A DNA stretch of 35,406 bases from the IMG/VR virus record IMGVR_UViG_3300030118_002898, positions 1-35,406 of that record; one strand, written 5' to 3'. Source of the DNA: a virus. The notes under the pieces were generated by a model. It saw only the letters and a list, made by a program, of their open reading frames with translations. It did not search any database and was not told where the DNA came from. Numbering within the stretch: the stretch's first letter is position 1; each line of letters begins with the position of its first letter. Of this stretch, positions 1 to 32,946 are shown one piece after another. Both the position numbers and the translations under genes were made by a program.

Positions 1-3000
1 AAATCTCTTGATAAATCTTTTTCAGTATAGTCATCTCTATTTATTGCATCTAATATAGCCTTTGCAGATTTGTTTACGTACTTTGTTGTACCCCTAACAT
101 CTTGAAGATTACCCATAATATCTTCAACAGTTTTAGCTTTATCCCTCTCTTCTTCCATTTCAGGAGTAAGAACTATATCAGGCATATCTGCTTCAATGTC
201 AGGCTTAGGAACAAATCTTTGTTTTGATCCATCTGTTGTTATAGTTCCGTCTGAATCAATACCAGTTACATTTATAGGGTCTAAAGTAATTGGTGTTTCT
301 TGCATACGTCTTTCTATTAAAGAGCCTTCATCTACAGGAATCTCTTCAATTTCTTTTTTATCTAAAGTTATTGCAGACTCATAAGGATTAGACTTTATTA
401 TTTCCTGCTCTTTATCAGAAAACCCTTTAAATTCCACTGGATCTAAAGTAACAGGAGCTTGATATTTTCTTTTTCTTATTATCTCATCTTCTCTTTCTGT
501 TTCTATTTGATCTAAAGTTTTAGGTTCCAAAGTAACTGTAGATTCATATGGTTTAGGTTTTTGCATAGACATATCATTTTCTGTAGGTACTCCATCTAAT
601 TTAACAGGATCTAAAGTAATTGTTTGACTATCAGCAAAATATCTAAAATCAGGATTATTCAAATAATCTAATACATTATCTTCTTTGTAATTAAATTTAG
701 AATCAGTTGCTAATTCTCTTAACCTGCCTGGATTTTGAAACCATTTCATGTCCTTTTGATTAATAACATCTCTAAAACTACCACTTTGAGTCATCATATA
801 AATTTCTCCAGTTTTAGGATTAAGTTTTAATTTATCATTTCCAAGAAGATTGTATCTGTTAACTATTGATCTAGGTAATTTACGTATTTCCAAATCACTT
901 AATGTATATGTTAAAGGTGCAGTTTCATTATAGTAATTCCAACCACTTTTTGTCTTTCCATCTCTATTAACTTTAAGATCTCTTGTAAAACCTTTATCAA
1001 ACCACTCATTATATCCATAGTCTTTTCTTTCTTGTGGTGTCAAATCAAACCAACTACTAAACTCAGTAATACCCTTTTTACCAGTTTTTTTAAGACCTTG
1101 TACATATTCAGGATTTAAATTAGCAAGACCTGAGTCAGCATCACCTGATGCAAATGTTCTAAAACCTGTTTGAGTTGGATACTGTAATAAATATTTTACT
1201 GCTCCATTATCTTTTACAATCTCTTGTACTCTCCAAGGTTTATTAGAATTTCTTATATATTGTGTAAGATTCTTTGGAGGATTGTTTGTACCTGTTCTAT
1301 AATCAACATCTTTAAGAAACCTTTTCTTATATTCTAAATATCTTAAATCATCTCTGCTTAACTCATATGTTCGTCTTCTATATGTTTGACCACTATATGT
1401 TTCATATGGCTCATACTCTGACCAATCACCTGTATCTTGATATTTCTTTTTATTAGCACCGTATGTCACAGTCTTATATCCATCCTCATCATACTCACCA
1501 GCGTTTTGAAACTTTGGTAATGAACCACCATACTCTCTTATCCTTTCTAAATTTTTAATAAGATCTTTATTTAAAGGAATAACTTCTTTCGCAAATCTTA
1601 TATCATCTACAAGAGGTCCTGTATTATTAACTCTACCTCTAACTATAATAGCATCATGACCTTTATTCATAACATCTTTCATAAACTCTTCACTGTATAT
1701 TCTATTTCTGTCAAGATAAAGAGGATTTTTAGGAACTATATTTCCTTGAAATGTCATAGAACCAACCTCTGAATAAGCTGTTGGAGATGGAGTAAACCAA
1801 CTTATTTTAGTAGGAACTGGTACTCCTGCACGAATTACATTACCTGGAAACTCCATTGGTTCCATTATATCATCAACATTAGTATGTCTTCTAAATAACC
1901 AGTCTTTTGGTCTAGGCATGTTTAAACCTGGAGGCATCTCTCTAATATTAAGAGGATCAATAATATCATCTACTTTTGCAATGTCTACTACATCATCAAC
2001 TTTTTTAACTGCAGGTGTTAAGAATCTTCTTAACCAACCCAGTTGTGCTTTTGGTAAATCTCCTCCTTCTTCTTTATATATATTTGGATTAGTTAAATCA
2101 AATGTACCTACATTACCTTCTAAAGATTTTAAAAAATTTCCAGGTACTTGATTACTAATTAGAATATCACCAAGCACACCATCATCTATGTTTTTAACAA
2201 ATAAATTATCTAAGTTATATTTTTCTACAAATTCTGCTAAATCATCTGTATATAAACTTTGTTTTCCAGCAGCAAAATCCATTAATTGTTTATAAGCAGG
2301 GTTAGATGTAATCTCATCCCAATTATTTAAAACATTTTCATAACTTTTAATATTTTTTTTTGTTCTTGTTACAAAATCTTTATTATAAATATTACCTTGT
2401 TTGCCTGCTTTAATACCTTCTTCTGCTTCTAATAATTTACCTTTTTGAAAATTTAAAGATTGTTGTAATTTTTCTTTATCTCTAAAAGCACGTCCTACAT
2501 CACCCCAGTCAGCACCAAAAGCATCTATTGTTAATGATGTTGTTGGAGTATTTCTAGAACCAAGTTTAAATATATTTGGGCCATAATGTGAAGCAAGATT
2601 TTTATCCCCTGTAAAGACACTTGTATATTCAACATTCATTGGATTAATTATTCTTCCTGCACCATAATCATCACCGTATTTTTTACCCCAGCTTATAGGA
2701 CCTTGACCTACTGGAAATCCTCTATATGTAGTAGTAACACCTTCAGGATATGCTTTTTTAAAAGCTTTGCTTTGCATTTGAACAAATAATTCTGGAGGTC
2801 CTTCAAAAGGACTACCATCTGGATTCTTCATCCAAGTTCCTTTTTTCTTAGCAACTTCTTCAATAGTATTATACTCTTGCATAAGTTCTTTGTTCAAAGG
2901 AATATCTTTATTCCAATTACTCCAATTAATTTCTGATTTAAATTTATTACTAGGAGATTTAAAAAAGCTTAAAAGTCTTCTTACTGCACCTGCTTTTTGG

Positions 3001-3203
3001 TATTGTGGTAAAGGTATTTCAAAAACTTCACTACCAGGAAATGTGTAATTAACACCAGGCATCATAAGTTCACTATAACCTAAATCATCTATACCAAATA
3101 CAGGAAAGTCTACATCCTCCATAGTTATATTACCTGATGGTATTATATTAAATGGATTGTTTCTATCCTTACTATTTCTTTTATATCCGTCTTTACTATA
3201 CAT
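1..3203 (-). CDS. Giant polyvalent/cargo-like protein with ADP-ribosyltransferase-like segments (3' end beyond window)
   Basis: An open frame runs from ATG at 3203 to the window edge with no stop, giving at least 1067 residues. The start shares one base with the muzzle stop (TAATG). Two stretches look like ADP-ribosyltransferase (ART) domains of phage polyvalent proteins. The first (about 2560-2735) has TTYRGFPVG and then VFTGDKNLASHYG. The second (about 1570-1850) has FTPSPTAYSEVG, NPLYLDRN and KGHDAIIVRGRV, followed by DIRFAKEVIPLN. Three LPxxQ motifs (LPQYQ, LPKAQ, LPKFQ) separate modules, and the last part holds five 27-28-residue repeats centred on TLDP. In crAss-like phages the genes after the muzzle often encode large virion cargo proteins ejected into the host; that role is inferred from position. 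I cannot show that the catalytic residues of an ART are complete, and the C-terminus is not visible. Reading frame certain; function tentative. Confidence 0.8.
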   Translation of the reverse strand, partial: MYSKDGYKRNSKDRNNPFNIIPSGNITMEDVDFPVFGIDDLGYSELMMPGVNYTFPGSEVFEIPLPQYQKAGAVRRLLSFFKSPSNKFKSEINWSNWNKDIPLNKELMQEYNTIEEVAKKKGTWMKNPDGSPFEGPPELFVQMQSKAFKKAYPEGVTTTYRGFPVGQGPISWGKKYGDDYGAGRIINPMNVEYTSVFTGDKNLASHYGPNIFKLGSRNTPTTSLTIDAFGADWGDVGRAFRDKEKLQQSLNFQKGKLLEAEEGIKAGKQGNIYNKDFVTRTKKNIKSYENVLNNWDEITSNPAYKQLMDFAAGKQSLYTDDLAEFVEKYNLDNLFVKNIDDGVLGDILISNQVPGNFLKSLEGNVGTFDLTNPNIYKEEGGDLPKAQLGWLRRFLTPAVKKVDDVVDIAKVDDIIDPLNIREMPPGLNMPRPKDWLFRRHTNVDDIMEPMEFPGNVIRAGVPVPTKISWFTPSPTAYSEVGSMTFQGNIVPKNPLYLDRNRIYSEEFMKDVMNKGHDAIIVRGRVNNTGPLVDDIRFAKEVIPLNKDLIKNLERIREYGGSLPKFQNAGEYDEDGYKTVTYGANKKKYQDTGDWSEYEPYETYSGQTYRRRTYELSRDDLRYLEYKKRFLKDVDYRTGTNNPPKNLTQYIRNSNKPWRVQEIVKDNGAVKYLLQYPTQTGFRTFASGDADSGLANLNPEYVQGLKKTGKKGITEFSSWFDLTPQERKDYGYNEWFDKGFTRDLKVNRDGKTKSGWNYYNETAPLTYTLSDLEIRKLPRSIVNRYNLLGNDKLKLNPKTGEIYMMTQSGSFRDVINQKDMKWFQNPGRLRELATDSKFNYKEDNVLDYLNNPDFRYFADSQTITLDPVKLDGVPTENDMSMQKPKPYESTVTLEPKTLDQIETEREDEIIRKRKYQAPVTLDPVEFKGFSDKEQEIIKSNPYESAITLDKKEIEEIPVDEGSLIERRMQETPITLDPINVTGIDSDGTITTDGSKQRFVPKPDIEADMPDIVLTPEMEEERDKAKTVEDIMGNLQDVRGTTKYVNKSAKAILDAINRDDYTEKDLSRD
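168..625 (-). repeat. Five tandem degenerate 27-28-residue TLDP repeats inside the left-end gene
   Basis: On the minus strand the gene encodes TITLDPVKL, TVTLEPKTL, PVTLDPVEF, AITLDKKEI and PITLDPINV. The acidic residue of each core is encoded at 609-611, 525-527, 441-443, 360-362 and 279-281. The spacing is 84, 84, 81 and 81 bases, i.e. 28, 28, 27 and 27 residues. A weaker sixth copy (IVLTPEM) lies near 158-176. The residues between cores are charged and poorly conserved, so this is a protein-level repeat rather than a DNA satellite. Confidence 0.8.
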
Positions 3204-6200
3204 TATCTAACTGATAAATTTATTTTTGTATTTACTAATTTAAGTATCATCTTTCTTGTATGAAGTATTGGTTGTTCTAATTCATCAACAGAAACTTTCT
3301 TTCTTAAAATTAAATTATTCACATAGTGTCTAAACTTCTTACGCTCTAGTTGTGGTTTATTGTAGTTCATATAAGCCTCATTAAGATCTCTTACATAACC
3401 ATTTAGCTGTGTAATAAATATTGGTTCAGGTACAGATCTATCATTTGTAATATCCCAGAATTGATCAAACCTATATTTTTGTTCTACTTTACTATAAAGA
3501 ATATTTATATCTGCAGCACCTATTATTGGATAACTAACAATATCATTAACATCTGCTGTTTGTTCTGTAAGTGTTAGTAAACCAGATACTTGCTCTGTAT
3601 TATAAATAATAGCTTCATCAAAGTTATAGTTAAGATCATGCCATCTATCATCACAACCATAGTTTAAAATACAACCATCTTCATCTAACTTAGGTTGATG
3701 TAAATATGATTCTAATTGATACTCAATGCTCCTTACAGTATTAACTGTTTGACCTATACTTTCTACAAGTTCTATCTCCCAAGGATGTTGTACATTATAA
3801 TAATTATTAAATACGTCACAACGTACATTATGTTTCCATGTTGCACCTGATTCATAAGAAGGTTCAACTTCATCTATTTGTTGGTCTGTACATAATGTTG
3901 CAACACATATAACACCTTGTCCCTCTGCATCAATACAATCTTGTGGAGTTGCAGGAGTTTCGTATATACCATCATCAAGAACTAGAGTATACGGTGTACC
4001 ATCTGGTAATGTTTCATTACATCTACAACTTGCTGCTGTATCTCTTACTCCAGGATCAGGAGGTGTCATAGCATCCATACATAAATAGCAATTTGTTGCT
4101 ACTCTTGGGTAATTTTGACCTGTAAAAGTATTATCATTAAATTGATATTCATAAGAAGGTAATGCATTAGCTAGAAAAGTAAAATATTTCCAATTTTTAG
4201 TAGGTGTAAAACTATAATTATAAAGTTGCCAACCTTGCACATCAGTTCCATTATGAAATACTGTGCCACCTTGAGAAATATCTCCAGAACTCCAAAGCAG
4301 TTCAGCATCATCTGGACTACCAGCATAAACCTGCCCGCTTACTTGAACTGTAACTGGTTCACCACTAGGTAATACAGGATAAGTAAAATCTACGTCGCCA
4401 GTAGTAAAAGCTGCACACCAACTTCCATTTTCACTTAAACAAAGTTCATTGCTACCCCATATTTGTAATTCAGGTCTATTAGCTGCTGGTTGTGTAGCAG
4501 GCACTACACTACCATAACCATCATTTTCCATGGGAGAAGTAACCGTTATTGTAATATCTTCCCCATCCGGACCCTTATATGTAATTTGTTCTTCACAAGG
4601 TGGCATACCAGGGGTAACTGTATTTTGACAATTGCTCATATTAAAAGATAGATCAGCAGCTAAATACACTTCACCTGTATATGTAACACCTTCAAGTAAA
4701 GGATTAGGTTCACCATTTTCATCTAATAATTCTTGACTTGCACCTTCTTTCCATGTTCCCAAAGCTGGATCACTTATCTGGTGTAACAAACCCAAATAAT
4801 TTTTACCTGATACAGGTTGTAACCCTATACAATTTTGTTGTAAAGGAGAACCCACTCTAAAATTAAATCCATCAAGTAAATCTGGAGTCTGAATAGTAAA
4901 GTAAGGTACTGTAGGATTAAAATTAAGATATGATGCTGTTATTTCAGGACAATCTTCGTTACTAAGAGAACTTCTCATACAAGTATCCCAGCCTTCTACA
5001 TAATCTATACTTCCAATAGCTGAAATTGGACCATTTAAAATAAATGGACTAAGAGGATTTGCTAGATTATAGTCATCTTCATCCAAAGACTCGGATAATC
5101 CAAAATCTGCATAAGTTAATGTACCATTTATTACTTGATCCATTTCTTCATCAGATGCAAGATATACACCATTAGGACCTTCAATACCTGGATTATTTAA
5201 AAATATAGGTTGTATAGGATCTCCATTTATATTAACATTAGTTTTTCCAGGAAAATAATCAACAGGTGCAGTAAGTGTTTGACAACACTGTCCTAAACCT
5301 TCATCAGTAGAATTGGGTACTAATACAGATCCTGGAGGACAATCTAAAACTACCTCACACAAACCTGTAATAGGATTAAGTGTATAACCTGGTGGGCAAT
5401 ACGGATCTACTAATTGTTCTGTTTTAGTTGTTAGGAAATGATTAAGACTAGATATAGTAAGTTCTGGATGCCAGTCATGGAATGATATCCATCCTTTTAT
5501 TTTAGGATCATAGCTTGCTGTCCATGATACATCTTTAAAGTTCTCCCCTTCTTCTAATGGAACATTAGTAATTACATCTTCACTTGTAGGATCTTCATAT
5601 ATAACAGACCTACAAACTATTCCAGGACCACCATTTACTACACAGTCCTCTGGTGTCGCTGGAGTAATTTCATCACTAGCTAATACTGTATCTGTTCCTT
5701 CAGGACAAAAACAAAATGGTGTTTCAATAATTTCTTCCGTTTCTTCTCCTACTTGTATATTTGCTAAATACAGATAACTATCTAATTTTCTATTAGTATT
5801 ATTTTGAAGATATGGCGCTCTGTAGTCATTAAATACTGTACCAACAAATTCATCTATTATTTGATTTTCTAAATTTCCCACTACACCATTAACTGAATCT
5901 GTATATCCACCTCCAGGTAGTACAAGACCATAATAGGGACGGTGATAACTACCATTACCTGGAAAACCAGGGGCTCCAATATTATGATTTTCTATTTCAA
6001 ATTTTTTATCTGGTCTATTATTATTTTTAAATACAATATATTCAAAATCCGCACTAGGTGTAAACTTAGCAATATATTTATTCCAACGTGGAACTGGTAC
6101 ATTTGATACATTACCTAAACCCATTCCTGCAAAATTTGCACAAGGTCCTGTAACATCGTTTTCAGGATCTCCTTGTGAACATGGTTCACCAGTGTATAAA

Positions 6201-9200
6201 TAGCTCCAAGTATTTGCGGCTCTTGGTGAAACAAGATTTGGAGCATTTACTATACCTGGACAACCATTAGCTTGACCAAATTGTCTAAACTGAGGAAGAT
6301 CTCCAAACGGAGTACCTTTACTATCTTTATAACCTTCAAAATAATCATAATTACCTATACTATACTCCCATGAATCCCATAATTTTTCACCCCAACTTGG
6401 AGAAAAACCCCAACCTAAAGGTTTACCTATTGCTTGACCTGCTGGAATATATGTACTATAATTTGTAGACTTACTTGGATCTCTTTGTAAAAATCCTGAT
6501 TTTGGTGGATCATCTGATTTTGCTAACTCCCAGGTAGGGTTATTTACATCCCAAGGTCCCATTATGTAATTTTCAAAGTAAATATTTACTGGATCAAGAG
6601 TATAAGCTTGATTAGCTATTACTGGAAACCATTGATATGCTTGATATCCTGGTGGATATGGACCTGGAGTTGCTGCATTATCTATAAAATTTAAATCTAT
6701 ATAAGTACTAAATTGATCACCTAAATTAGCAGGGTCAATATTTAATGGATATGGTATAAGATCCTGTATACTTTGCATTGTAAAAGGAAAATTTGCAGGA
6801 TCAGTTAAAAAATCATTATCTATAAATGTATCACCTAATCTAAAATAATTATTAGATTCATGCCAAAATTCATCTTGATATGCCCAGCCTGGATGACAAG
6901 TTGAATAACCAAAAGGACCATCTGAACTAAACGCACCATAATCATCCCAATCACAAGGCTCATCTGTATCATTACAATTTTGATTCGTACCATATATTAC
7001 TAATGATGCCGGGCTATTGTAATGAACATTTTGACTAAACCCTCCACCTTGAGAAAAACATCCTCCCCTTAAACTCATCATCCAAAATGATATAGTATAT
7101 TCTACCCCAGCTTGCATTGGATAAGCTAATTTTTGACTTATTCCTTCTTCCCACTCTTGTCTAGCATTGTGTTCGTATTTATAACCTATCATACCTATAC
7201 TAGGCAAACTTGGAGGTAGACCTTCTATACCATAATCTGCAGGTATGAAATTTTGGACATAGTCGCCATCACTATCAAAAACAGTACCAGTAAATTCTGC
7301 ACAATTTACAAATTCAGGTACACCAGCACAATTATCAGTAAAGTTAACTTGAGTTGTTGTTACTTCTCCAGATCCATCAATTGATTGTTCAGTTATTTCT
7401 TCTTCTGTTCCTTCACAACATAAACCAGTTGCTTGATTATAATAATATGTTATTTCATTTCCATTTTCATCTATTTCGTTGTAAGTTTCACATCTAGGAC
7501 ATAAAGTTGTACCATTAGTCCATGTATCTGGTGTCATACACATATGCCAAGGTTCACCTATTTGACCCCAACCTGTACCATCTAATATAGGTTGAAGTTG
7601 ACCATTAACAATTCCTAATGCAGGACCGCTTGTCATAATGGTCTCGGTTGAAGTACCAATATTAGGATCTTGAATAATTATTTGTTCACATATAGGATCT
7701 CCGTTTTCATCCGTTGTTAAAGTAAAACCTTCTTCACAAACTATTATAGGATCAACACCATAGCATTCTGTTTCATTAATGATAAATCCTTGTTCTGGAT
7801 CAAACTCTAAACATGGATCTATATTACATGGTTCATAATCTTTCTTACAGAAATATACAATATCATAGTTAGGATCATACACTGATTGACAACCAATACC
7901 TATAACAGGATTGTCAGCAAACTTACTCCCCTCTATTTCAGGAAATGCTTGAATTAATCTAGAAGGTAAATATGTATTAAACCATTGCTTCATTCCAGCA
8001 TCAGCAATGTTATTTAAACCTTGACCTGAAACATTAAATATTTTACCCTGTGCTTGTGACATATAATATATACCTGCTGGTGTATTTATCACACTTCTAG
8101 AATCTTCACATGATCCATATTCATGTGGTAAATCTGCAGTAGTAATTTGTTTCATTGGTTGACTAAATAAACCTCCGTCACCAATAGTAATTTTAGTATC
8201 TAAGTCAGTTGTGAGTGTATCAACACCCTCAAACAATAATGGAGCTAAATGTGGAAACAAAATCATTGCTCCTGTTTTAGATATAGGTTTTATAGTTGTA
8301 GGAGCATTTTTAAAGTCCTTATAGTTGTTTGGTAGGTATACCCTCCAGAAATCTTGTTTAGCTTCTTTGAATGCCTGTAATGAGTATAACACTCTTTTTG
8401 TATAGTGGTCATAACATGTAGCTGCTACATTAGGATCATAGTCTCTACCTTGTATTAAACTGTAACTTATCAACTGACTAATTAGATTAGATTTACTTAA
8501 AGAATAATCATACTTATAGAAATTACCCTCTTTAATTATATCAGAATGAAATAAACCATTAAGATCTGTAAATCTTGACCAATCATAGTACTTTTCTTTT
8601 TTACCTTCTCCTTGAGCTCTATGTGCAACATTTAATTCAGACTCTACAAAGAAATCATTTACACCACTATTGTGTGTATACATGTATGCTCTTCTTAAAA
8701 CAAATAAACTACTACCCTGCGCTGCACCGCCAGTTTGAGTTATAGTATTAGCTAAGCTAGTAGTAATTTGACCACCAAAACTAAGGTTACCAGAGTTAGC
8801 ATCACCTTCCTTATCCATGTTACGCATAGCACTTGGAATAGCATTTCCAGTTGACCAGTTAAAATCAAAGTTAATTATTGGACTAAATAAATTATGCATA
8901 TCATATTTATTTGTATCCATATAATATCTTGGATAAGGAACATTTTGATAATCTCTATAATCAAATCCAAAGTTATCAGGTTGTCCATTTAAAAACTCCC
9001 AAAAAAATGGCATTATAACTTTTTCACTATATCTATTTACATAAACATCACCACCAAACAAAACTTCACTTTTAAAAGTTTCTCCTGGAATTAAATTACC
9101 AGGTTCTCTTGAAAGATAAGGGATTAAATCAGGAGGTCTAACTTCAAACTCTAGATCTGTATTTTCTGTCCCTTGTCTAATAAATCTTTGACTACAAGGA

Positions 9201-12124
9201 ATAGGAACTTGTTTTATACCATCTAGCTGACCGTATTGATTATCCATTGCAAACTTTAATGCTACATAATGAGCAGCAATAGGTGCTCTTACTTCCGCAG
9301 TAGGAAAAGCATGAATACCTAAATCACCCATACTATTTCTAGACTGATCTAAACCAACAGGCATAGGTAAAGAATTAAACGGACTATCTGCAGTACCATT
9401 TGTTTGAACAACAACAGTGGCTGGTCTATATAAATTATTAATCCTTATGTTTGTAAAAACATCTTCTGATCCAAAATCTTGAAATGTGTTTCCAACATAT
9501 CTTGACTTTGTTATATTTTGTCTAAATGTTGTACCATCATGTATATCCACTGTTTGAGAATATAAACCATAAGAATTATACTTATAAGCATACTGATGTT
9601 CACCTGCTATATTATAAACAAGATCTACAACTTCTTGTCCACCAACAGCAGCATAGTGCATGGTTGTAAATAAACCAGATATTATACCAAGTATGTTAGG
9701 TAATGACTTTACATCTGTTCCTTCAAATTCTACTTTTTGACTACCTGCTATTGTAAGAGGACTAGATAGAACAGATATACCATCAACAAGAGTAGCTGTA
9801 GATTGCATATAAGCAACTTCACCTAATCCTGCTCCTAGACCTGCTGGACCAGGAACTATAGGTGATGCTGTAAATTGAGTTTCTATACCAAGTGGAGAAA
9901 GTGGAAGCATAGGTGCTTGTAGTCCAATCTGAAATGCATCTAAAGCAGCACCTTGAGTTACATTTGCATTTACACTTGTTTTTCTTTTACCACGTTGTTT
10001 ACTAATAGCAAAACCTATACCAACAAATGCAGCTAGTATAGCTACAAAGTCTCTTATTAATACATTCTTAGGATGACCTTCAGATGGTCTAAAGTAACCT
10101 TGTGAAAGACCTGTATTAATACCATAAGATTTTAATTCTGATGGATTTAAAAATGGTCTTTGAAATGATGTCTCTGGTGAATGGAATGTATAAAAATTAC
10201 TACAACCATGAGCAAAAGTAGATGTTCCACAATGAGCTAGATTAACAGGCATTGGAGGATTAAATGAATTACCACCATTAGGTGGATTTAATGTTAAAAA
10301 TGAATCACTTCTTAAATCATTAAATGGATAATTAGCCATTACACCTACACTTGTTAAAGATATAGGATTATCTGCACCAATGTTACCACCAGCAGTTTGT
10401 TCTGGTAGAGGGTACTGTTTCATGTTTCTAATTATACCTTTAGATAGAATAGATTTATTACCTTGCCTTGATCCTACTAATATTTCATATCCAACAATAT
10501 TATTTATTATATTTCCTTCATTATCTACAGGCCATGCTATATTATCAAACTCAACCCCAAGAATTCTTATAGATTGATTATCACCGCTTGATCTATTTAC
10601 AGTTTCATCTGTTTGTTCATCAGGAAACTTATGATGTCTTATAGGTTGACCACATAACTCTTCCCATCTTCCATGAGGATCTTCAGCAGGATAAAATTCA
10701 GAAGATTCCCAATACCCCATTTGACCTTTAGAAAGTATTACACCACCATCATCTAGTACAGTAGACCCATCAAACTCATCAACAAATGAAGTATTATTTA
10801 CTTTCCATATTTCATCCTCATCATTATTTAAAACATTTGTTTGATCAGGAGCTCCTTTCTCATCTCCATATTCAGGATTGTTTGTTAAATAAGCACGCCC
10901 TGGTATATGGTATGAAAATGATTTATCCCCTGTATGATATATAAATCTAATAAAAAATGCATATTGTTCATCCCTCATAAATGTAGGCTTGTTACCTCCA
11001 TTTACATAATACTCAGCAGGATATTCTGTAGATACCCATTTAGCAGTTATCTTATTAGCTAACGGTTGATAGTTAAAATCAAAATTAGTAGTTGGCCCTA
11101 TTCTTAATAAATAGTCATTTACAGGAACCATTTGATCAGACCTTTCATATGCAGGAGTTTGTAAAGGTAGTGTGCTAGGATCTACTTGTGCAGCTGTAGC
11201 TTTATTTTCTGAAATGTAATCTATATTAATTTTAGTTTGATGTGTGCTATAAATACCTACTTGTATAGCTTGTGGTTGTTGTTGATTATTTATTAATATT
11301 ACTAATTTATAATCACTAAAATTAGTATCTAAATTAGAAATTTCTATATCTAATGAGCAAGCTGTACCACCTTGATCAAACAGTGGTTGTATGTTAGATA
11401 CACCTACGTAGTTACCTATTTGTTGTTCATTTACTAAATAAGCTATATAAGCTTGGTATGATCCATTTAATAATTGACCAGGACTATCTGCTTTAGATAG
11501 TTTTACACAAGGTGTTTTCATTAATGGTGCTAAACGTATAAGATCACAATCTAGCTGTAAAGGTTCTACATTCTCAAATTCAATACATGGATCACCATTT
11601 ATATCTATACCAGAAACTTGTACTTGAACATAAGGAATATAATTATTTTCAAGTATCTCATCCTTATTACCTAAATTAATTGTTCTAGAAGGATTTAATC
11701 CATCATCCCAATATACTTGCCAAGTACAATCATAATTTTCTTTTGAGGCACCTGTAATTAAATTAAATTTGTTAAAGTTTAAACACTTATCATTAATCAA
11801 TGTATTATATTCACATTGACTATCATCAAATAAACCTATCTCACTGTTGTTATTATCTGTAGAATATATTATCCACTTATCACCATAAAGATAAATAGCA
11901 CCTATAATAGTATAACCTGTATTTACACATATAAGATTTGCAGGCTCATTACCAACAGTGCCTGCATCACCTCTAGCAGAATTATTAATACAATTTCTAC
12001 AATGAGTCCAGCTCTCTTTTCCCACAAAACTTCTGTGAGAATCTTTAGTCATACCTTTTATAAATACATCTGTATCTATATTTGAAGTATTTACAGGCTT
12101 AAAATTTGATTGTTTTTTTGCCAT
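3203..12124 (-). CDS. Tail muzzle/stabilization protein, giant, with two large inserted modules
   Basis: 2973 residues, ATG start overlapping the upstream stop (TAATG). I recognise the crAss-like phage muzzle (P22 gp10-like stabilization protein) core from MRDEQYAFFIRF and SYHIPGR (residues about 380-410), from WTASYDPKIKGWISFHDWHP (about 2200), and from the C-terminal blocks WKHNVRCD, QTVNTVRSIEY, YNTEQVSGLL, KYRFDQFWDITNDR and ERKKFRHYVNN. This protein closes the distal end of the short tail. The core is interrupted at about residues 1432-2194 and 2234-2759 by cysteine-rich, beta-rich inserts, leaving roughly 1690 core residues. A hydrophobic stretch, FVAILAAFVGIGFA, sits near residue 692. 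Ring-protein genes lie directly upstream and the polyvalent gene directly downstream, as expected for a tail operon. Family assignment is from remembered sequence blocks; the receptor-binding role of the inserts is inferred. Confidence 0.88.
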   Translation of the reverse strand: MAKKQSNFKPVNTSNIDTDVFIKGMTKDSHRSFVGKESWTHCRNCINNSARGDAGTVGNEPANLICVNTGYTIIGAIYLYGDKWIIYSTDNNNSEIGLFDDSQCEYNTLINDKCLNFNKFNLITGASKENYDCTWQVYWDDGLNPSRTINLGNKDEILENNYIPYVQVQVSGIDINGDPCIEFENVEPLQLDCDLIRLAPLMKTPCVKLSKADSPGQLLNGSYQAYIAYLVNEQQIGNYVGVSNIQPLFDQGGTACSLDIEISNLDTNFSDYKLVILINNQQQPQAIQVGIYSTHQTKINIDYISENKATAAQVDPSTLPLQTPAYERSDQMVPVNDYLLRIGPTTNFDFNYQPLANKITAKWVSTEYPAEYYVNGGNKPTFMRDEQYAFFIRFIYHTGDKSFSYHIPGRAYLTNNPEYGDEKGAPDQTNVLNNDEDEIWKVNNTSFVDEFDGSTVLDDGGVILSKGQMGYWESSEFYPAEDPHGRWEELCGQPIRHHKFPDEQTDETVNRSSGDNQSIRILGVEFDNIAWPVDNEGNIINNIVGYEILVGSRQGNKSILSKGIIRNMKQYPLPEQTAGGNIGADNPISLTSVGVMANYPFNDLRSDSFLTLNPPNGGNSFNPPMPVNLAHCGTSTFAHGCSNFYTFHSPETSFQRPFLNPSELKSYGINTGLSQGYFRPSEGHPKNVLIRDFVAILAAFVGIGFAISKQRGKRKTSVNANVTQGAALDAFQIGLQAPMLPLSPLGIETQFTASPIVPGPAGLGAGLGEVAYMQSTATLVDGISVLSSPLTIAGSQKVEFEGTDVKSLPNILGIISGLFTTMHYAAVGGQEVVDLVYNIAGEHQYAYKYNSYGLYSQTVDIHDGTTFRQNITKSRYVGNTFQDFGSEDVFTNIRINNLYRPATVVVQTNGTADSPFNSLPMPVGLDQSRNSMGDLGIHAFPTAEVRAPIAAHYVALKFAMDNQYGQLDGIKQVPIPCSQRFIRQGTENTDLEFEVRPPDLIPYLSREPGNLIPGETFKSEVLFGGDVYVNRYSEKVIMPFFWEFLNGQPDNFGFDYRDYQNVPYPRYYMDTNKYDMHNLFSPIINFDFNWSTGNAIPSAMRNMDKEGDANSGNLSFGGQITTSLANTITQTGGAAQGSSLFVLRRAYMYTHNSGVNDFFVESELNVAHRAQGEGKKEKYYDWSRFTDLNGLFHSDIIKEGNFYKYDYSLSKSNLISQLISYSLIQGRDYDPNVAATCYDHYTKRVLYSLQAFKEAKQDFWRVYLPNNYKDFKNAPTTIKPISKTGAMILFPHLAPLLFEGVDTLTTDLDTKITIGDGGLFSQPMKQITTADLPHEYGSCEDSRSVINTPAGIYYMSQAQGKIFNVSGQGLNNIADAGMKQWFNTYLPSRLIQAFPEIEGSKFADNPVIGIGCQSVYDPNYDIVYFCKKDYEPCNIDPCLEFDPEQGFIINETECYGVDPIIVCEEGFTLTTDENGDPICEQIIIQDPNIGTSTETIMTSGPALGIVNGQLQPILDGTGWGQIGEPWHMCMTPDTWTNGTTLCPRCETYNEIDENGNEITYYYNQATGLCCEGTEEEITEQSIDGSGEVTTTQVNFTDNCAGVPEFVNCAEFTGTVFDSDGDYVQNFIPADYGIEGLPPSLPSIGMIGYKYEHNARQEWEEGISQKLAYPMQAGVEYTISFWMMSLRGGCFSQGGGFSQNVHYNSPASLVIYGTNQNCNDTDEPCDWDDYGAFSSDGPFGYSTCHPGWAYQDEFWHESNNYFRLGDTFIDNDFLTDPANFPFTMQSIQDLIPYPLNIDPANLGDQFSTYIDLNFIDNAATPGPYPPGYQAYQWFPVIANQAYTLDPVNIYFENYIMGPWDVNNPTWELAKSDDPPKSGFLQRDPSKSTNYSTYIPAGQAIGKPLGWGFSPSWGEKLWDSWEYSIGNYDYFEGYKDSKGTPFGDLPQFRQFGQANGCPGIVNAPNLVSPRAANTWSYLYTGEPCSQGDPENDVTGPCANFAGMGLGNVSNVPVPRWNKYIAKFTPSADFEYIVFKNNNRPDKKFEIENHNIGAPGFPGNGSYHRPYYGLVLPGGGYTDSVNGVVGNLENQIIDEFVGTVFNDYRAPYLQNNTNRKLDSYLYLANIQVGEETEEIIETPFCFCPEGTDTVLASDEITPATPEDCVVNGGPGIVCRSVIYEDPTSEDVITNVPLEEGENFKDVSWTASYDPKIKGWISFHDWHPELTISSLNHFLTTKTEQLVDPYCPPGYTLNPITGLCEVVLDCPPGSVLVPNSTDEGLGQCCQTLTAPVDYFPGKTNVNINGDPIQPIFLNNPGIEGPNGVYLASDEEMDQVINGTLTYADFGLSESLDEDDYNLANPLSPFILNGPISAIGSIDYVEGWDTCMRSSLSNEDCPEITASYLNFNPTVPYFTIQTPDLLDGFNFRVGSPLQQNCIGLQPVSGKNYLGLLHQISDPALGTWKEGASQELLDENGEPNPLLEGVTYTGEVYLAADLSFNMSNCQNTVTPGMPPCEEQITYKGPDGEDITITVTSPMENDGYGSVVPATQPAANRPELQIWGSNELCLSENGSWCAAFTTGDVDFTYPVLPSGEPVTVQVSGQVYAGSPDDAELLWSSGDISQGGTVFHNGTDVQGWQLYNYSFTPTKNWKYFTFLANALPSYEYQFNDNTFTGQNYPRVATNCYLCMDAMTPPDPGVRDTAASCRCNETLPDGTPYTLVLDDGIYETPATPQDCIDAEGQGVICVATLCTDQQIDEVEPSYESGATWKHNVRCDVFNNYYNVQHPWEIELVESIGQTVNTVRSIEYQLESYLHQPKLDEDGCILNYGCDDRWHDLNYNFDEAIIYNTEQVSGLLTLTEQTADVNDIVSYPIIGAADINILYSKVEQKYRFDQFWDITNDRSVPEPIFITQLNGYVRDLNEAYMNYNKPQLERKKFRHYVNNLILRKKVSVDELEQPILHTRKMILKLVNTKINLSVR

Positions 12125-13038
12125 TACATTCTAGTTGTAGGGAAACTTTTAAACATATTATAATAATTATTATACTGAGCTTTTCTATTTACTTCCCATA
12201 TCTTTTGCATTTCTTTAAAGTTTGGTGTATTTATAAAGCCAAGAGCATTGTTTCTTGCAGCTCTTAATTTTCCTTGTATATAACCTAACTTTTGTGATAC
12301 ATTTTCTCCATCAAATAACATATTTTCTAATATCCTTTCTTTCAATGCATACTCATAGTATTCATTACAATAAGGATGATCTAATACTAAAAGATTGCCA
12401 TCCTCATCTTCCATAGCCCCTTGATAACTTATAAATACTTTACCAGTATCAAAATTAGTTAACAAATACCCATCTCTTATTTCAGCTATATCAACAGCTT
12501 CTACATGCATGTTTGGACATCCATTTTGTACAGATCCAATACTATCTTTAATTCTTAAAGGATAAAATCTATTAGAAGTTCTATATTGTTCTGCACCCAT
12601 GTATTGAACAACCATGTATTCATTATATACTGTCTTACCATTTTTAGTTTCTGGGCATGTTTTCACAACGCAGACATCTTTACATGTAGGATCATCACAA
12701 GGCCCTGTATCACCACCATCAGGAGCTGGTACATATTTAGGTTGTGTTGTATCTACATGCGTTCCTGAAGGAAACGTATTTACTATTTTAAATTCATCAC
12801 AAACAAAAGCATAATTTAAATATTTAAAATCTGCAGGCATTTTTGCTTTACCATGCTCTACTTCTAACAAATATTCTTTTGTTCTATTTATTCTTAAACC
12901 TAAATCATAATTGACTCTTATTGCAACTTTAATTAATTGTTGAGGTTCAAGCATGCCTTCTAATGCCTGACTAGAGAAGTCTATACTTACATCTTCTAAT
13001 AATTGATTAAATGTTTTATATTTATGTGATATTGCCAT
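12124..13038 (-). CDS. Tail ring/adaptor protein (crAss-like)
   Basis: 304 residues. ATG overlaps the stop of the upstream ring-protein gene by one base (TAATG), and its own stop overlaps the muzzle start in the same way, so the three are probably translated together. The C-terminal half contains DGYLLTNFDTGKVFISYQG, MEDEDGNLLVLDHP and NEYYEYALKERILEN, blocks I associate with crAss-like ring proteins that stack between portal and muzzle. A helical N-terminus is followed by a beta-rich core with an inserted cysteine-rich loop (CDDPTCKDVCVVKTC, about residues 113-128). The C-terminal helices are rich in Asn and Tyr. The exact ring position cannot be decided from sequence. Confidence 0.8.
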   Translation of the reverse strand: MAISHKYKTFNQLLEDVSIDFSSQALEGMLEPQQLIKVAIRVNYDLGLRINRTKEYLLEVEHGKAKMPADFKYLNYAFVCDEFKIVNTFPSGTHVDTTQPKYVPAPDGGDTGPCDDPTCKDVCVVKTCPETKNGKTVYNEYMVVQYMGAEQYRTSNRFYPLRIKDSIGSVQNGCPNMHVEAVDIAEIRDGYLLTNFDTGKVFISYQGAMEDEDGNLLVLDHPYCNEYYEYALKERILENMLFDGENVSQKLGYIQGKLRAARNNALGFINTPNFKEMQKIWEVNRKAQYNNYYNMFKSFPTTRM

Positions 13039-13709
13039 TATCTATTTACGTTTACTTTATTATCTGAATCCTCTGCAGGAACCTTCATTGTATTAAATGT
13101 TTCTTGTAGTACTTGTTGTTCTATTTCTGCAAATAAAAATTCTGGAACAAATATTCTTTGTAAATATCTTGGAATACAATTATCACCAGGATCACAGTTA
13201 AATTTAGAAACATCATTTTCCCATATTCCTTCTACTTTAATGGCATCCCATTCTACATTAGGAAGGTATAGATAATCATTTAACCACCAAAAATATTTAG
13301 TTTTATTATATTTAAAAGTGGTTGAATTAGTCATTGACGTATATGTACCGGGTGAAGTAGCTTGACATTCTATAGATCCATCAATAGAAGAAACAGTTCT
13401 AATTAAAGGACCCCAATGACCTTCCATAAATGCAGGTAACTTTAATCTAGTTCTTTTTATTTTACAATCACTTTTAATACCACAGCATTCTGATTCTATT
13501 TTATCTACATCAATTAATTCTACATAATCTAAACTTTGCCATACACTATTAAACTTTTTAAGCTTATTAGTGCTGTCTTGTCTTCTCATAAATAGTTGTG
13601 CATACTTTTTTACCAAGCTATATAAGTACCTGTCTGTAACAAAAGCATCCTCAGATTCTGCCTTTATTTGACCTCTAATCCGAGAAATTATATCTCCTAT
13701 TCTTTGCAT
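13038..13709 (-). CDS. Tail ring/adaptor protein, probable first ring (crAss-like)
   Basis: 223 residues, ATG start 14 bases after the preceding gene. The N-terminus (MQRIGDIISRIRGQIKAESE...FVTDRYLYSLVKKYAQLFMRR) is an amphipathic helical bundle typical of phage head-tail adaptors of the P22 gp4/tail-tubular type. The remainder is beta-rich with WWLNDYLYLPN and FVPEFLFAEIEQQVLQE. Cysteines occur as CC and paired C-x-C-like sites. The gene lies directly upstream of the second ring protein and the muzzle, matching the tail order known for crAss-like phages. It probably forms a dodecameric ring in the short tail. No catalytic motif is visible. Assigned mainly by position and fold character. Confidence 0.7.
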   Translation of the reverse strand: MQRIGDIISRIRGQIKAESEDAFVTDRYLYSLVKKYAQLFMRRQDSTNKLKKFNSVWQSLDYVELIDVDKIESECCGIKSDCKIKRTRLKLPAFMEGHWGPLIRTVSSIDGSIECQATSPGTYTSMTNSTTFKYNKTKYFWWLNDYLYLPNVEWDAIKVEGIWENDVSKFNCDPGDNCIPRYLQRIFVPEFLFAEIEQQVLQETFNTMKVPAEDSDNKVNVNR

Positions 13710-16279: not shown

Positions 16280-19200
16280 TTAACAATCTGCTACATATTT
16301 AATATTAACCCAATACTTACCAGTAGTAACACCATCTCTATCATACTGAGCAATTCTCCTTACTGCATTTGTACTAGCAGCACCTTGTTGTGCATAATAT
16401 GCACCATCAACTGGCTGCGCAGAAACTGCTCCAGCATTACCCCCTGATATAGTTAAATATGCTGGCACACTTGGATCAAATTGTACCCCAGTTGAATTAT
16501 ATAATGGTACACAATTACTAGCTGTTATAGCTGCTGCACCTGCTTTAGAGCAACTAGTAGGATCAGTAGGATTATTACCATAAGTTGAAACTGTAGCTCC
16601 ATTAAGTGTTCCCGTCATAAGTTGAATACTATCAGTTCCTGTAGGACAATTTACATCTGTAGATATTCCCATACCAGAACTATCAACACCTGTTGCACGT
16701 TTAATAGCATTACCTAAAAATTCTATTTGATCACCTGCAGAGTGAGCATTAGAATCACTTTCTAAATAACTTTTATCAATAAAAGGTAAAACTCTAAATC
16801 CATAGTTATATAAACCAATTATAGTATTTGATGCACCAACAGTAGTTCCATTATAAGGAACCATTTGAGAAGCCTTTGGTCCCATATAATCATTTAAATT
16901 AATTGGATTTTTAACACTTCCTGCAGGAAATCCTTTTAATCCTGTTTCTGAAAGAACTGTTCCTGTTAAAGCACCGGCTGTTTGTAATACTGTTGCAGCA
17001 CTTCCATCTTGTGATCCAGATACTAAAGGAACAAGAATTTGGTTTAAAGTAAACTTTTTATATGTGCAACCTTGATCACTTCCCCATGTAGTTCTAGCTG
17101 TTCCATTTACATATAATATATCTAGTAATTCATCATAATTTTTTTGATACTTAGCAGTAGGTTGTACTCCCCATCCTTGAGATAAGTTTGCACCTCCATA
17201 ATTACCTTTAGAATTTACATCACCAATAAAACAAATTAAATATACACTACTAGGAATACCAGCAGATGATCCTGCTGCCCAGTAAGAAGGTAAACTTTTA
17301 ACTGAAGTATAACCACTTGCAACTGTTATACTACCAGACGCACCAGCTTTCATATCAACCATTGCTTTAGTGTAATCTAAATAATCTCCAGAATTACTAC
17401 CACCTACAGGTACATAATTTATAACACCTGACCAATCAGGACAATTATCTTGAATATCTGTTTTTACTCTATCTATTTCTGTTTTAATTACTGCAGCTTC
17501 ATCTTCTGATACTACATTTGCATCTATAAATACTGTAATATCAGTATTACCTTGATTTATTGTAGCCGCATCATTTATAGGAATAGTTATAGTATTAACA
17601 GTTCTATTACCTGGATTACCTACCGTACAGTCTGTTTCTGCATATACTTCTACAGAATCAATTCCCCCAATAGGTCTTGTTGCAGAAGGAGTATAATTTA
17701 ATTGAACAGTACCACCTAAACTACTATCATAAGCTGTATCTGTCGGTAAAACAAAAGATGTTGCACCTCCTAAAGTAGAAGTTGCATTCCATTTTATTGC
17801 AGCTGTTTGTTGTGAATATCCAACTATATCAATTGGTATTCTTAAAGTTTTATTTGCAACAACATACCAAGAGTGTCTATCAGGAGAATATGCTTCTGAT
17901 TTTGCTATACTTGAAGTATCCCCATATTTAGTTCTTACATAAGAAGGTTTACAATCACAACAAAATACTACTTGATCTATACTTTTATTTGCTGTATTAG
18001 CTAGTGCATAAACATAATAATTTGTACGGCCATCTTTCTTAATTGCATCTAAATATTGCCAACCATTTTCATTAGAATTCATTAATGTAGTCATACCGCT
18101 TGCAGGGTATGCAACATTTCCACAGTTAATACTTGTTGTAGGATTATCACTTATAGATGTAGAATTAAGAACAAATGTATCATCTACACCTGTTTCTGAA
18201 CTGTCTGTTCCTTTATATACACATGGTAATCCTGTTTCAGGATTAAAACCAACTATCCATGCAGTTACTGTTGTACCACTTTTATATGTGGCTAAAGTTA
18301 TTTTTGTAGATCCTACATCAGCTATTGCTGTTTTATAATCTGTTGATGTATATGAATATGATGTACACACCGGAGCTGAAGTTGTAAATGTAGTTTTACT
18401 ACAAGTTGAAATATTTCCAGATAAAGATGTTGTTTTAACATATATATCATATGTTGTTCCTGCAACTAAATTAGAAGCTTTTCCAGTTGTAGAAGTTTGT
18501 GAAGGAGAACTAATAGTTTGTTTAGATATTGTACTTCCAGCTTGATCTTCAACAATAACTTCATAAGTAGATTTAGATGTAGTACTTAAACCAGTTACAG
18601 AATATGTAATAGCTGTTTCACCTGTAGTTAATAATGTAACTGTAGGACAAGCAGATGTATTTTCTAAAGTAAAGTCCATTATACGTTCACATAAATTAGA
18701 TCCATCTGTAAATGCAAATTCTATTTTAATTTTAAAATTACTAGTTATATCTAAACCTGATGTAGCTAAATTACCAATTGTAAAACCAGTAGCACTAGTA
18801 GATAAATTAGTAATATTAGCAAATTTAACTACAGTATTAAGAGAAGAATCTTCTACAATAATTTTAGTACCTTTTACTTTATTAGAATCCGTGTAACCTT
18901 CAGGTATTGTCATGGATGTAAATAAAAATTTAATTCCATTTATATTTCCTGTACCATCTTTTGTTAAACTTAACTTGGGATCATAAACAAAACCTGAACA
19001 ACCAGTTGGTGTTACACTTGTCTGCAATGTAGCAACTGCTTTTCTCATATCACAAATTGTCTTCCAAGCATTACTAAAAGCTTCTGATAAATTTTTAGGT
19101 GTAGAATTCCAACCTGGTAATGTTGACATTACACCATTACCACTTAAACGAGCTTCAGCAGATAAGTTAATACACTGTTGTCTAGAAGCTTTTAATACTT

Positions 19201-20296
19201 CTGAGCTAGAACCTATTGCATTTCTTAAACTACCATAATCCATTTCTAAAGCTGATAATAACTCATGCATTTCTACACGTTGTCCAACTTTATTTGTTAC
19301 ATATCTTGCTAAAATCTTAGGTGGTGTATATACTGATGCTCCTTTTCTTTCTACTGCAACTATTCTATTTTTAAGTTGTGTTATAATTGGTAAGTTTCTA
19401 ACAACTCTATCTGAATTTGGAGTAAGTAAAACATCTGGGGGTGTACTAGTAGTTCCACTAGAACAACGTGAGTCATCTAATAAACAACAAAGTTTTTGCG
19501 TCACTAAATCTGCCCAACCACTATAAGTATATTCTGTTGTAGTACCATCTGCTTCAATAAAAGATTCAGTATATGCACCTGTTATTTCATTTCCTAATGC
19601 ATCTTGTGCTTGAAGAAGCATTGTACCATTATCACCTATTGTTATGTTATTAAGATTATCTGTTAATGTACCTACTTCAGCTATAAAACATTTAGGTAAT
19701 GTTACTTTTATATTACCAGGAAGTCCTGGGGGTCCTTGTTCTCCTGGTCCTCCATCTTGTCCTGGTAAACCAGGTATAGTTTCAATAGTATTAGTTACAA
19801 TTGTTTCACCAGTTTGATATGTAATAGTAAATGTTCCGTTACCGTTATCAACTATATTTGTTATAATACTACCAGGTGCTCCAGCTTCTCCAGCTTCTCC
19901 AGGTTCTCCTGCAGGCCCTTGAGGTCCTTGTGGCCCTTGTTCTAGTTCAAGATCATCAATATCTTCAATTAAAACATTTAATGTATTTTGTAAATTAGTT
20001 ATATTACCAATATTATTACAAGTTGTTTGTATAATATTATTAATAATTTCTGTTAGATCTTGTCCAGGTTCTTGATACTGAACATAACAATTTTGATTTA
20101 TACCACTTATATCAAAAGAAGCATCTATACCTGTATCAATTAATGTACAAATTAATTCAGCCATTTTTGCAACAACAATACTAATAGTATCACCATTGCA
20201 AACATTAATACAATTTAAATCTGGACCTTGCCATACAACACAATTAGATGATATAGGTTTACATCCTTGCGTATTTCCAGTACTAAGTGGTAACAT
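16280..20296 (-). CDS. Large tail/head fibre with collagen triplets, FN3-like region and vWA-like fold
   Basis: 1338 residues, ATG start. Layout: cysteine-rich N-terminal anchor (CKPISSNCVVWQGPDLNC...CNGDTISIVVAKMAELIC, residues 12-50); helical stalk; collagen triplets at 121-142 and 176-194; a helical region at 290-430; FN3/Ig-like sandwiches at about 430-640 (AGTTYDIYVKT); more beta-rich domains; and residues about 917-1095 that alternate strands and helices like a von Willebrand A domain (DITVFIDANVVSED, SVYLICFIGD). Collagen triplets and FN3 domains are common in phage fibres and give trimeric, extended structures. The SSNCVVWQGPD type of N-terminus is one I associate with virion-anchored fibres of Bacteroidota phages. 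It likely binds the host surface; whether attached to tail or capsid is unknown. A leader hairpin and promoter-like motif lie upstream. Confidence 0.85.
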   Translation of the reverse strand: MLPLSTGNTQGCKPISSNCVVWQGPDLNCINVCNGDTISIVVAKMAELICTLIDTGIDASFDISGINQNCYVQYQEPGQDLTEIINNIIQTTCNNIGNITNLQNTLNVLIEDIDDLELEQGPQGPQGPAGEPGEAGEAGAPGSIITNIVDNGNGTFTITYQTGETIVTNTIETIPGLPGQDGGPGEQGPPGLPGNIKVTLPKCFIAEVGTLTDNLNNITIGDNGTMLLQAQDALGNEITGAYTESFIEADGTTTEYTYSGWADLVTQKLCCLLDDSRCSSGTTSTPPDVLLTPNSDRVVRNLPIITQLKNRIVAVERKGASVYTPPKILARYVTNKVGQRVEMHELLSALEMDYGSLRNAIGSSSEVLKASRQQCINLSAEARLSGNGVMSTLPGWNSTPKNLSEAFSNAWKTICDMRKAVATLQTSVTPTGCSGFVYDPKLSLTKDGTGNINGIKFLFTSMTIPEGYTDSNKVKGTKIIVEDSSLNTVVKFANITNLSTSATGFTIGNLATSGLDITSNFKIKIEFAFTDGSNLCERIMDFTLENTSACPTVTLLTTGETAITYSVTGLSTTSKSTYEVIVEDQAGSTISKQTISSPSQTSTTGKASNLVAGTTYDIYVKTTSLSGNISTCSKTTFTTSAPVCTSYSYTSTDYKTAIADVGSTKITLATYKSGTTVTAWIVGFNPETGLPCVYKGTDSSETGVDDTFVLNSTSISDNPTTSINCGNVAYPASGMTTLMNSNENGWQYLDAIKKDGRTNYYVYALANTANKSIDQVVFCCDCKPSYVRTKYGDTSSIAKSEAYSPDRHSWYVVANKTLRIPIDIVGYSQQTAAIKWNATSTLGGATSFVLPTDTAYDSSLGGTVQLNYTPSATRPIGGIDSVEVYAETDCTVGNPGNRTVNTITIPINDAATINQGNTDITVFIDANVVSEDEAAVIKTEIDRVKTDIQDNCPDWSGVINYVPVGGSNSGDYLDYTKAMVDMKAGASGSITVASGYTSVKSLPSYWAAGSSAGIPSSVYLICFIGDVNSKGNYGGANLSQGWGVQPTAKYQKNYDELLDILYVNGTARTTWGSDQGCTYKKFTLNQILVPLVSGSQDGSAATVLQTAGALTGTVLSETGLKGFPAGSVKNPINLNDYMGPKASQMVPYNGTTVGASNTIIGLYNYGFRVLPFIDKSYLESDSNAHSAGDQIEFLGNAIKRATGVDSSGMGISTDVNCPTGTDSIQLMTGTLNGATVSTYGNNPTDPTSCSKAGAAAITASNCVPLYNSTGVQFDPSVPAYLTISGGNAGAVSAQPVDGAYYAQQGAASTNAVRRIAQYDRDGVTTGKYWVNIKYVADC
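19715..19936 (-). repeat. Two collagen-like Gly-X-Y blocks in the large fibre
   Basis: The first block encodes seven triplets, GPQ-GPQ-GPA-GEP-GEA-GEA-GAP, and the second GLP-GQD-G-GPG-EQG-PPG-LPG type sequence with a one-residue register break. A 33-residue beta segment separates them. Such blocks form trimeric helices in phage fibres. Confidence 0.9.
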
Positions 20297-32844: not shown

Positions 32845-32946
32845 TTATTTTTTTAAAGTATAAGTAATAAATACTTTACCATAGGTAGAATTAGTTTTCC
32901 AATTAGATGCGTAACCTGTAGAAGTAGTTGTCCAATATTTTTTCAT
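32845..32946 (-). CDS. Small ORF (33 residues) between terminase and portal
   Basis: ATG shares one base with the terminase stop (TAATG) and the ORF fills the space to four bases before the portal ATG. It encodes a short Thr/Tyr/Lys-rich peptide beginning MKKYWTTTSTGYASNWK and ending FITYTLKK. The exact fit into the gap and the TAATG junction, the same as at four other boundaries here, support translation. It looks like one or two beta strands with no known motif. It could instead be a non-functional reinitiation product. Confidence 0.5.
   Translation of the reverse strand: MKKYWTTTSTGYASNWKTNSTYGKVFITYTLKK

Follow-up and report, generated by a model that had tools for sequence, protein, structure and literature searches.

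Two sockets in a crAss-like phage muzzle protein appear to carry exchangeable frame-and-head cassettes, probably directed at the host surface

The stretch analyzed here, IMG/VR virus record IMGVR_UViG_3300030118_002898 (35,406 bases at its full length, hereafter the window), contains an intact open reading frame (ORF) of 2973 amino acids whose sequence identifies it as a crAss-like muzzle protein. Its core is interrupted by two large cassettes. Of the 124 distinct muzzle proteins compared, counting that of the window, 81 have a cassette at one of these junctions or at both. The evidence makes it probable that the muzzle is a two-socket platform, where cysteine-rich frames carry exchangeable heads that would act on the host surface. 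The parts of the protein, with the basis on which each was delimited, are as follows (HMM, hidden Markov model).

3203..12124, minus strand: muzzle protein ORF, 2973 amino acids, intact
7835..12124, minus strand: core, N part (residues 1-1430), ending ...DPNYDIVYFCKKDY; alignment with insert-free relatives
5543..7834, minus strand: site-1 cassette, 764 amino acids (residues 1431-2194); HMM anchors
7685..7834, minus strand: site-1 N frame, with the cysteine-rich start EPCN.D.C..FDPE...; right edge approximate
5732..7561, minus strand: site-1 head, probable divergent member of a flavobacterial-type family; seven-head HMM, E 1.8e-5
5543..5722, minus strand: site-1 C frame (CFCPEGT..ATPEDC..GIVC); homologous to the site-2 C frame
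5423..5542, minus strand: core block B between the sites (NFKDVSWTASYDPKIKGWISFHDWHPELTISSLNHFLTTK); anchor, with 85-88% DNA identity to relatives L002-L004
3842..5422, minus strand: site-2 cassette, 527 amino acids (residues 2235-2761); HMM anchors
5357..5398, minus strand: site-2 N-frame cysteine hairpin CPPGYTLNPITGLC; frame HMM of relatives L013 and L030, cassette residues 3-25
4049..5008, minus strand: site-2 head, a domain in common with Flavobacteriales proteins; family of the site-1 heads of L003 and L004
3842..4027, minus strand: site-2 C frame (CRCNETLPDG..ATPQDC..GVIC); sequence comparison
3203..3841, minus strand: core, C part (residues 2762-2973), beginning TWKHNVRCDVFNNYY; alignment with insert-free relatives

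The ORF matched Pfam crAss_MUZ above the cut-off (E 9.5e-20; 70.8 bits against a cut-off of 27) in three stretches, the best being residues 18-277, and it also matched PHROG 37948 and 15100 (virion structural protein). The C part of the insert-free relative L010 scored 50 bits against the same Pfam family. Searches of PDB sequences with the ORF and the core profile gave nothing significant, the sole matches being to a conotoxin hairpin at E 0.6-0.9. NCBIfam gave nothing useful. When either cassette was used as a single-sequence query against viral contigs, or the site-2 head against genome contigs, no relative appeared, and tblastn of each cassette against phage records gave no match at E <= 10.

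A first-pass annotation, made from the sequence letters alone, had proposed that inserts of about 760 and 525 residues at sharp points had enlarged a muzzle core of about 1690 residues to 2973. The cassettes measured 764 and 527 residues, and the core without them 1682. Its junctions were placed correctly, while its coordinates, 5542-7830 and 3847-5424, were off the reading frame by one base; read in frame, the intervals are 5543-7834 and 3842-5422. Insert-free relatives showed the same core blocks as near neighbors. For example, in L006/L007, L010, and L031 (1680-1698 amino acids), the block SWTxSYDPK..WISFHDWHPE lies 36-46 residues after block A, and W(R)HN..C follows it at site 2 after 12 residues; in many other relatives, site 2 is 3 residues long. 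Had all close relatives possessed these regions as core, the proposal would have failed. Because insert-free relatives exist and the relative L004 keeps the core with different cassettes, the inserts are not part of the conserved core.

The relatives (designated L, with s1 and s2 for the site of a cassette) were drawn from viral-contig scans and one genome scan. The best 80 of 254 relatives were kept from a viral-contig scan and the best 80 of 89 (76 loci) from a later scan, and the sample is therefore not random. The 152 muzzle ORFs obtained were reduced to the 124 distinct proteins by dropping those identical to or contained in others. Core block B was used as an HMM anchor and is hence present in every protein counted, and a site was called occupied at 90 or more amino acids. 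By this measure, 24 proteins had both sites filled, 50 had site 2 only, seven had site 1 only, and 43 had neither. The gaps fell at the points named by the first-pass annotation: in the 43 doubly empty proteins, site 1 is just 31-57 residues long and site 2 just 3-12. Among all 93 proteins lacking a site-1 cassette, 29-76 residues were found there, and the 50 lacking a site-2 cassette have 3-12. The largest cassettes were 863 amino acids at site 1 (L002) and 730 at site 2 (L004).

As judged from these alignments, recurrence at the same junctions is not a matter of chance. All cassette evidence comes from metagenome contigs, which would suit an origin of the apparent swaps in chimeric assemblies. 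Yet reading frames are unbroken across the joints, the junctions are the same in all 81 cassette-bearing proteins, and identical (L003 and L072) or nearly identical (L013 and L136) proteins occur on different contigs, so that chimerism is scarcely credible as the explanation. Some muzzle genes of the group (L088, L089, and L090) were on contigs assigned to metagenome-assembled genomes (MAGs) of Campylobacteraceae, Pseudomonadales, and Sphingomonadaceae; these are probably mis-binned phage contigs.

The cassettes are two-layered in sequence, with a head nested inside a cysteine-rich frame. Site 2 of L013 and L030 holds such a frame of 141-143 amino acids alone, and headless frames of 140-143 amino acids were found in five relatives (L013, L136, L157, L030, and L088). 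An HMM built from the headless L013 and L030 splits into an N piece (about positions 1-46) and a C piece (about 46-146), which flank the head in 28 of the 32 first-set site-2 cassettes, weakly in L003. The remaining four were two headless cassettes, the window with the N piece only, and L004 with no match. The clearest case is L013 and L015, whose frames align closely around a von Willebrand A (VWA) head in L015 and around none in L013. At site 1, six cassettes of 94-131 amino acids without a class match were counted as frame.

In the window, the C frames of the two sites are homologous (36% identity over 47 residues at E 5e-5 to 7e-5; 35% over 54 at E 5e-5 in a second comparison). The start of the site-1 N frame is kept in L002, L003, and L004 despite differing sequence after it. 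The expected richness of the inserts in cysteine, proline, and glycine was borne out, while that in asparagine was not: at sites 1 and 2, cysteine was 3.0 and 3.6% (1.2% in the window core), proline 8.4 and 9.1% (5.4%), glycine 10.2 and 9.1% (7.4%), and asparagine 7.9 and 6.8% (8.2%). Across 105 cassettes of at least 90 amino acids, the mean cysteine content was 3.8%, against 1.1% in cores. The site-2 hairpin CPPGYTLNPITGLC (5357-5398, minus strand) bears a weak, non-significant likeness to contryphan-Vc1 (E 0.6).

The heads of the relatives fell into several classes, the commonest being VWA, with 68 labeled cassettes (by in-house HMMs and six hand labels). Pfam VWA was above its cut-off in 8 of the 35 relatives' cassettes scanned (L008_s1, L032_s1, L032_s2, L077_s1, L080_s1, L177_s1, L134_s1, and L101_s1), and five more reached E < 0.01, below the cut-off. 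The L101 stretch scanned begins 34 residues before its site-1 cassette, with the match inside the cassette. Fourteen of the cassettes labeled by the in-house VWA HMM had also served to build it, and each of the 14 was still recovered when left out (E 3.7e-12 or better). A metal-ion-dependent adhesion site (MIDAS)-type motif, D-x-S-x-S, was found by a loose pattern within the first 260 residues of 67 of the 68 VWA-labeled cassettes, the exception being L063_s1.

A second class looks like metalloproteases: Reprolysin_5 or Reprolysin_3 was above the cut-off in L002_s1, L004_s2, L143_s2, and L168_s2, and all four have the HExxHxxGxxH motif and a Met-turn-like motif. A further class, including L012, L016, and L027 among others, is called PA14-like as a label only, with weak matches of which the best to Pfam PA14 was E 0.086 (L016_s2), below the cut-off. 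The designation ConA-like for site 2 of L009 and L036 was considered and left as an unproven label. Head labels were set by hand for P0001_s1, L103_s2, L172_s2, L003_s2, L135_s1, L005_s1, L045_s1, L063_s1, L174_s1, L175_s1, L077_s1, and L080_s1. Among these, L003_s2 and L045_s1 also match a class HMM, L077_s1 and L080_s1 also match Pfam VWA, and L172_s2, which is not on the tree, gave no match to the seven-row HMM described below (E 0.076).

Some heads resemble, in sequence, secreted proteins of the likely host bacteria. Among 296 genomes belonging to the order of a Flavobacteriaceae MAG, the HMM of the window site-2 head found members in two (E 1.7e-9 and 6.4e-5), and a single blastp comparison of this head with one of them, L096, gave E 2e-5. 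In both bacterial members (L095 and L096) the domain stands near the N-terminus, with a signal-like start (by eye) and Ig-like repeats; L095 also matches type IX CHU_C, though weakly and under the cut-off (E 0.0046), and Pfam MAM, which would point to a jelly-roll or MAM-like fold, reached 0.14-0.19 on these proteins, likewise below the cut-off. By these comparisons, the site-2 head belongs to a family shared with Flavobacteriales proteins. A seven-row HMM, built from seven phage heads of this flavobacterial-type family and run against 638 targets, matched L095 and L096 at 3.4e-18 and 4.8e-18, L003_s2 at 8e-17, and the window site-1 cassette at E 1.8e-5, the best shuffled decoy being 0.23. The site-1 head, which was also aligned to the family by eye, is probably a member.

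The protease cassette of L004 had matches in 95 of 196 genomes, many of which cover GCTD repeats only. The best bacterial matches (E 1.1e-52), to metalloproteases with a signal-like start, cover both the catalytic domain and the region upstream of it, which we read as a pro-region. One Flavobacteriales metalloprotease, L181, is 38% identical to L004_s2 over residues 69-612 and has HEIGHNFGSPHTH, IMSYC, and GCTD repeats in common with it. L181, L095, and L096 each have a signal-peptide-like start by eye, whereas the phage copies lie inside a virion protein.

Comparison of near relatives suggested that these heads are exchanged. The core tree was built with FastTree only, from 122 rows with two short-core proteins left off, and some of its long branches are of unsure place. 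On it, the closest relative of the window is L004, with 88% identity in kept columns (86% in a first tree). The two phages carry different cassettes at both sites: flavobacterial-type heads at site 2 and tentatively at site 1 in the window, and a flavobacterial-type head at site 1 and a protease at site 2 in L004. In binned comparison, most core bins were 64-100% identical; identity fell to 4-38% in bins lying entirely within the cassettes and rose again to 80-100% beyond them. At the DNA level, the stretches before site 1, between the two sites, and following site 2 were 87, 88, and 92% identical, respectively, against 59-67% at the cassette ends. Seven other full genes of the window with a counterpart in L004 were 73-97% identical; another three of the ORFs compared lacked a counterpart in the L004 stretch examined. 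Outside the cassettes, a low-identity stretch of the core was also observed (two bins of 34-36%, residues 701-800, at about 9725-10024).

At site 1, L003 (E 2e-88; 36% over 548 residues) and L004 (E 8e-59; 52% over 207 plus 27% over 305) have cassettes homologous to the one at site 2 of the window, and the same head family is therefore placed by sequence at both sites. Similarly, the site-1 VWA head of L177, from a lineage with another frame and no site-2 cassettes, is 50% identical over 211 residues to the site-2 head of L019, while their cores are 43% identical. For L041_s1 and L016_s2, whose heads are 42% and cores 46% identical, the similar values mean that this pair alone is no demonstration of transfer. 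The minimum number of state changes on the core tree was 13 at site 1 and 14 at site 2 with all labels, and seven and nine with HMM-only labels, where unmatched and headless rows are left out.

Were there no exchange, a single ancestral domain at each site would have diverged beyond recognition. Vertical descent of the frames would account for the joints kept at both ends within the window's clade, but VWA and reprolysin families occupy the same socket, L013, L136, and L157 are headless, and heads are homologous across the two sites, which together make this account very improbable. An origin of the variation in a diversity-generating retroelement (DGR) was not supported, as the reverse transcriptase family RVT_1 was detected in none of 14 records (13 viral records of relatives and one MAG, some of them fragments, with the window not among them) and in 3 of 14 control genomes.

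The cassettes could instead be ancestral to the whole group and lost in some relatives, in which case their present role may still be host-directed. The insert-free L006, L010, L031, L152, L169, and L170 are nested among cassette-bearing rows, and changes between occupied and empty are few (two at site 2 and six at site 1), as this would predict. Large inserts are absent at these sites, however, from phiCrAss001 gp44, csAssE-Sib, and a Leptolyngbya phage, and from 36 of 43 rows across the midpoint root, with the counts giving no direction. We consider ancestral cassettes rather unlikely, though deserving of weight.

Three relatives without muzzle cassettes (L060, L052, and L061) have a separate cysteine-rich ORF with a PA14-like head (E 3e-33 to 1e-26), beginning at 982, 954, and 311, respectively, some 9 kb upstream of the muzzle. 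The L060 ORF also has a frame-like hairpin. The presence of the head and of this hairpin in a separate gene suggests that cassettes may move between genes.

The genomic setting of the muzzle is that of a crAss-like phage, with terminase, portal, major capsid protein (MCP), and a putative ring-type protein just upstream all found in the window:

32946-35135: TerL; crAss-like morphogenesis gene order
30091-32841: portal; crAss-like morphogenesis gene order
26975-28618: MCP; crAss-like morphogenesis gene order
16280-20296, minus strand: tail-fibre ORF, 1338 amino acids; PHROG tail fibre
13038-13709 and 12124-13038: two virion structural proteins just upstream of the muzzle; ring-type by position alone

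The tail-fibre ORF is 73% identical to its L004 counterpart over the full length and is the least conserved of the seven genes compared. The ORF after the muzzle (3-3203, minus strand; 1067 amino acids, cut by the window end) is 70-85% identical to its L004 homologue, except that about 260 residues (105-363) have no equivalent there and no Pfam match above the cut-off; it may be ART-like.

The position of the sockets was mapped on phiCrAss001 gp44, with which the window muzzle has a homologous core (by Pfam, and by hhalign for the N part). That muzzle is described as hexameric, with a ring-joining domain, a seven-bladed propeller, IG1/IG2, and a crass domain that probably touches the cell (PMC10172136). 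In alignment rows other than L010, L033, and L079, site 1 aligns after gp44 residue 1199 (DVYFTYKD) and site 2 after 1235 (SSEFYAFKD). Both sites would accordingly lie, by alignment, in the beta-propeller and not in the distal crass domain, and the strand pattern suggests equivalent hairpin turns in two adjacent blades, 6 and 7.

We propose that each socket sits at the turn of one of these blades and holds a disulphide-rich frame with an exchangeable head. Frame and head, or head alone, would be exchanged by recombination among lineages, from one site to the other, and probably with one or more further genes. In the window, a flavobacterial-type head would occupy site 2 and probably a larger divergent member site 1, where relatives carry VWA or metalloprotease heads. 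If exposed on the virion, the heads would act on host-surface or capsule molecules as the tail tip arrives, the VWA and flavobacterial-type heads by adhesion and the proteases by cutting, and head swapping would affect host range. Six muzzle subunits, as reported for phiCrAss001 (PMC10172136), would give up to twelve heads per tail. Host-surface engagement appears the likeliest role of the cassettes, as VWA, reprolysin, and Flavobacteriales-shared domains are suited to it, and the different heads in near relatives and the headless states fit changing partners. The first-pass annotation had suggested that the inserts would project at the host-facing end and may be built-in receptor-binding modules, a reading that the present results support in part. 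A more far-reaching version can be offered tentatively: a two-level plug-in system whose heads come from adhesins and zymogen proteases secreted in the host phylum. These heads would move among sockets, lineages, and other virion genes, set host range, and sense contact or cut, helping to open the muzzle gate.

Several observations weigh against host-directed sockets or the head assignments. Pfam gave nothing above the cut-off on either window cassette. AlphaFold2 models of the site-1 head (five alignment rows) and site-2 head (three rows) were of low confidence, with a pLDDT (predicted local distance difference test) of 34.4 and 41.2, and did not bear out the beta-rich character expected of the inserts, and Foldseek with the site-2 model found no match at E <= 0.001. 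The site-2 head HMM matched none of 395 genomes sampled from the phylum, and the E-value placing the site-1 head is modest, its tree label having been set by hand. Among VWA-labeled cassettes, L002_s2, L022_s2, L045_s1, and L063_s1 had no Pfam VWA match at E <= 1, and L130_s1 and L172_s1 none at E <= 0.1. All cassette-bearing phages are metagenome contigs. Finally, the side on which the blade-6 and blade-7 turns emerge bears on exposure: in the SU10 nozzle, a loop from propeller blade 1 docks short tail fibres, which makes outward exposure of the heads possible, yet blades 4-6 line the channel (PMC9509320).

The cassettes could also be outward decorations without a host receptor, stiffening or shielding the tail tip or binding environmental glycans or particles, while separate tail fibres recognize the host. 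A separate tail-fibre ORF is indeed present at 16280-20296, a PA14-like head stands in another gene of the three relatives without muzzle cassettes, and some relatives lack any head or cassette, from which it follows that heads are dispensable in some lineages. The intact zinc motifs, the MIDAS-type motifs (67 of 68, by the loose pattern), and the differing heads of near relatives fit changing partners better, and we regard decoration as unlikely. Under the preferred host-directed reading, the empty, headless, and headed natural states make crAss-like phage-host contact testable head by head, with near-identical phages bearing different heads as natural experiments. It would be unusual for a virion protein to hold, in a socket at the tail tip, a metalloprotease of the secreted type together with the region upstream of its catalytic domain.

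No description of two-socket frame-plus-head exchange in a muzzle propeller was found in the open-licence PMC literature searched. Related systems share parts of it. For crAss-like muzzles, the phiCrAss001 report notes that length varies by insertions able to affect surface properties, and locates these insertions in IG2 (residues 318-1021) and the crass domain (PMC10172136); the window sites, in contrast, map to the propeller beyond gp44 318-1021 and hold whole exchangeable domains. In SU10, the receptor-binding domain belongs to a separate fibre protein (PMC9509320), whereas the putative effector domain of the window is in the same chain. The DGR tail fibres of Zeta crAss-like phages are likewise a crAss-like way to change host-contact parts, although the diversification described there is of points, by reverse transcriptase, while whole domains differ in the window group (PMC12386605). 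The Ig-like adhesins of Bacteroidota gut phages resemble the window group in having modular adhesive domains, theirs being combinations of BACON, PKD, and Ig; the available part of that report concerns these other domains and describes no muzzle sockets and no VWA or protease heads (PMC13370021). Muzzle length variation and modular phage adhesins were hence already known; the nature and movement of the extra muzzle sequence were not described in the papers found.

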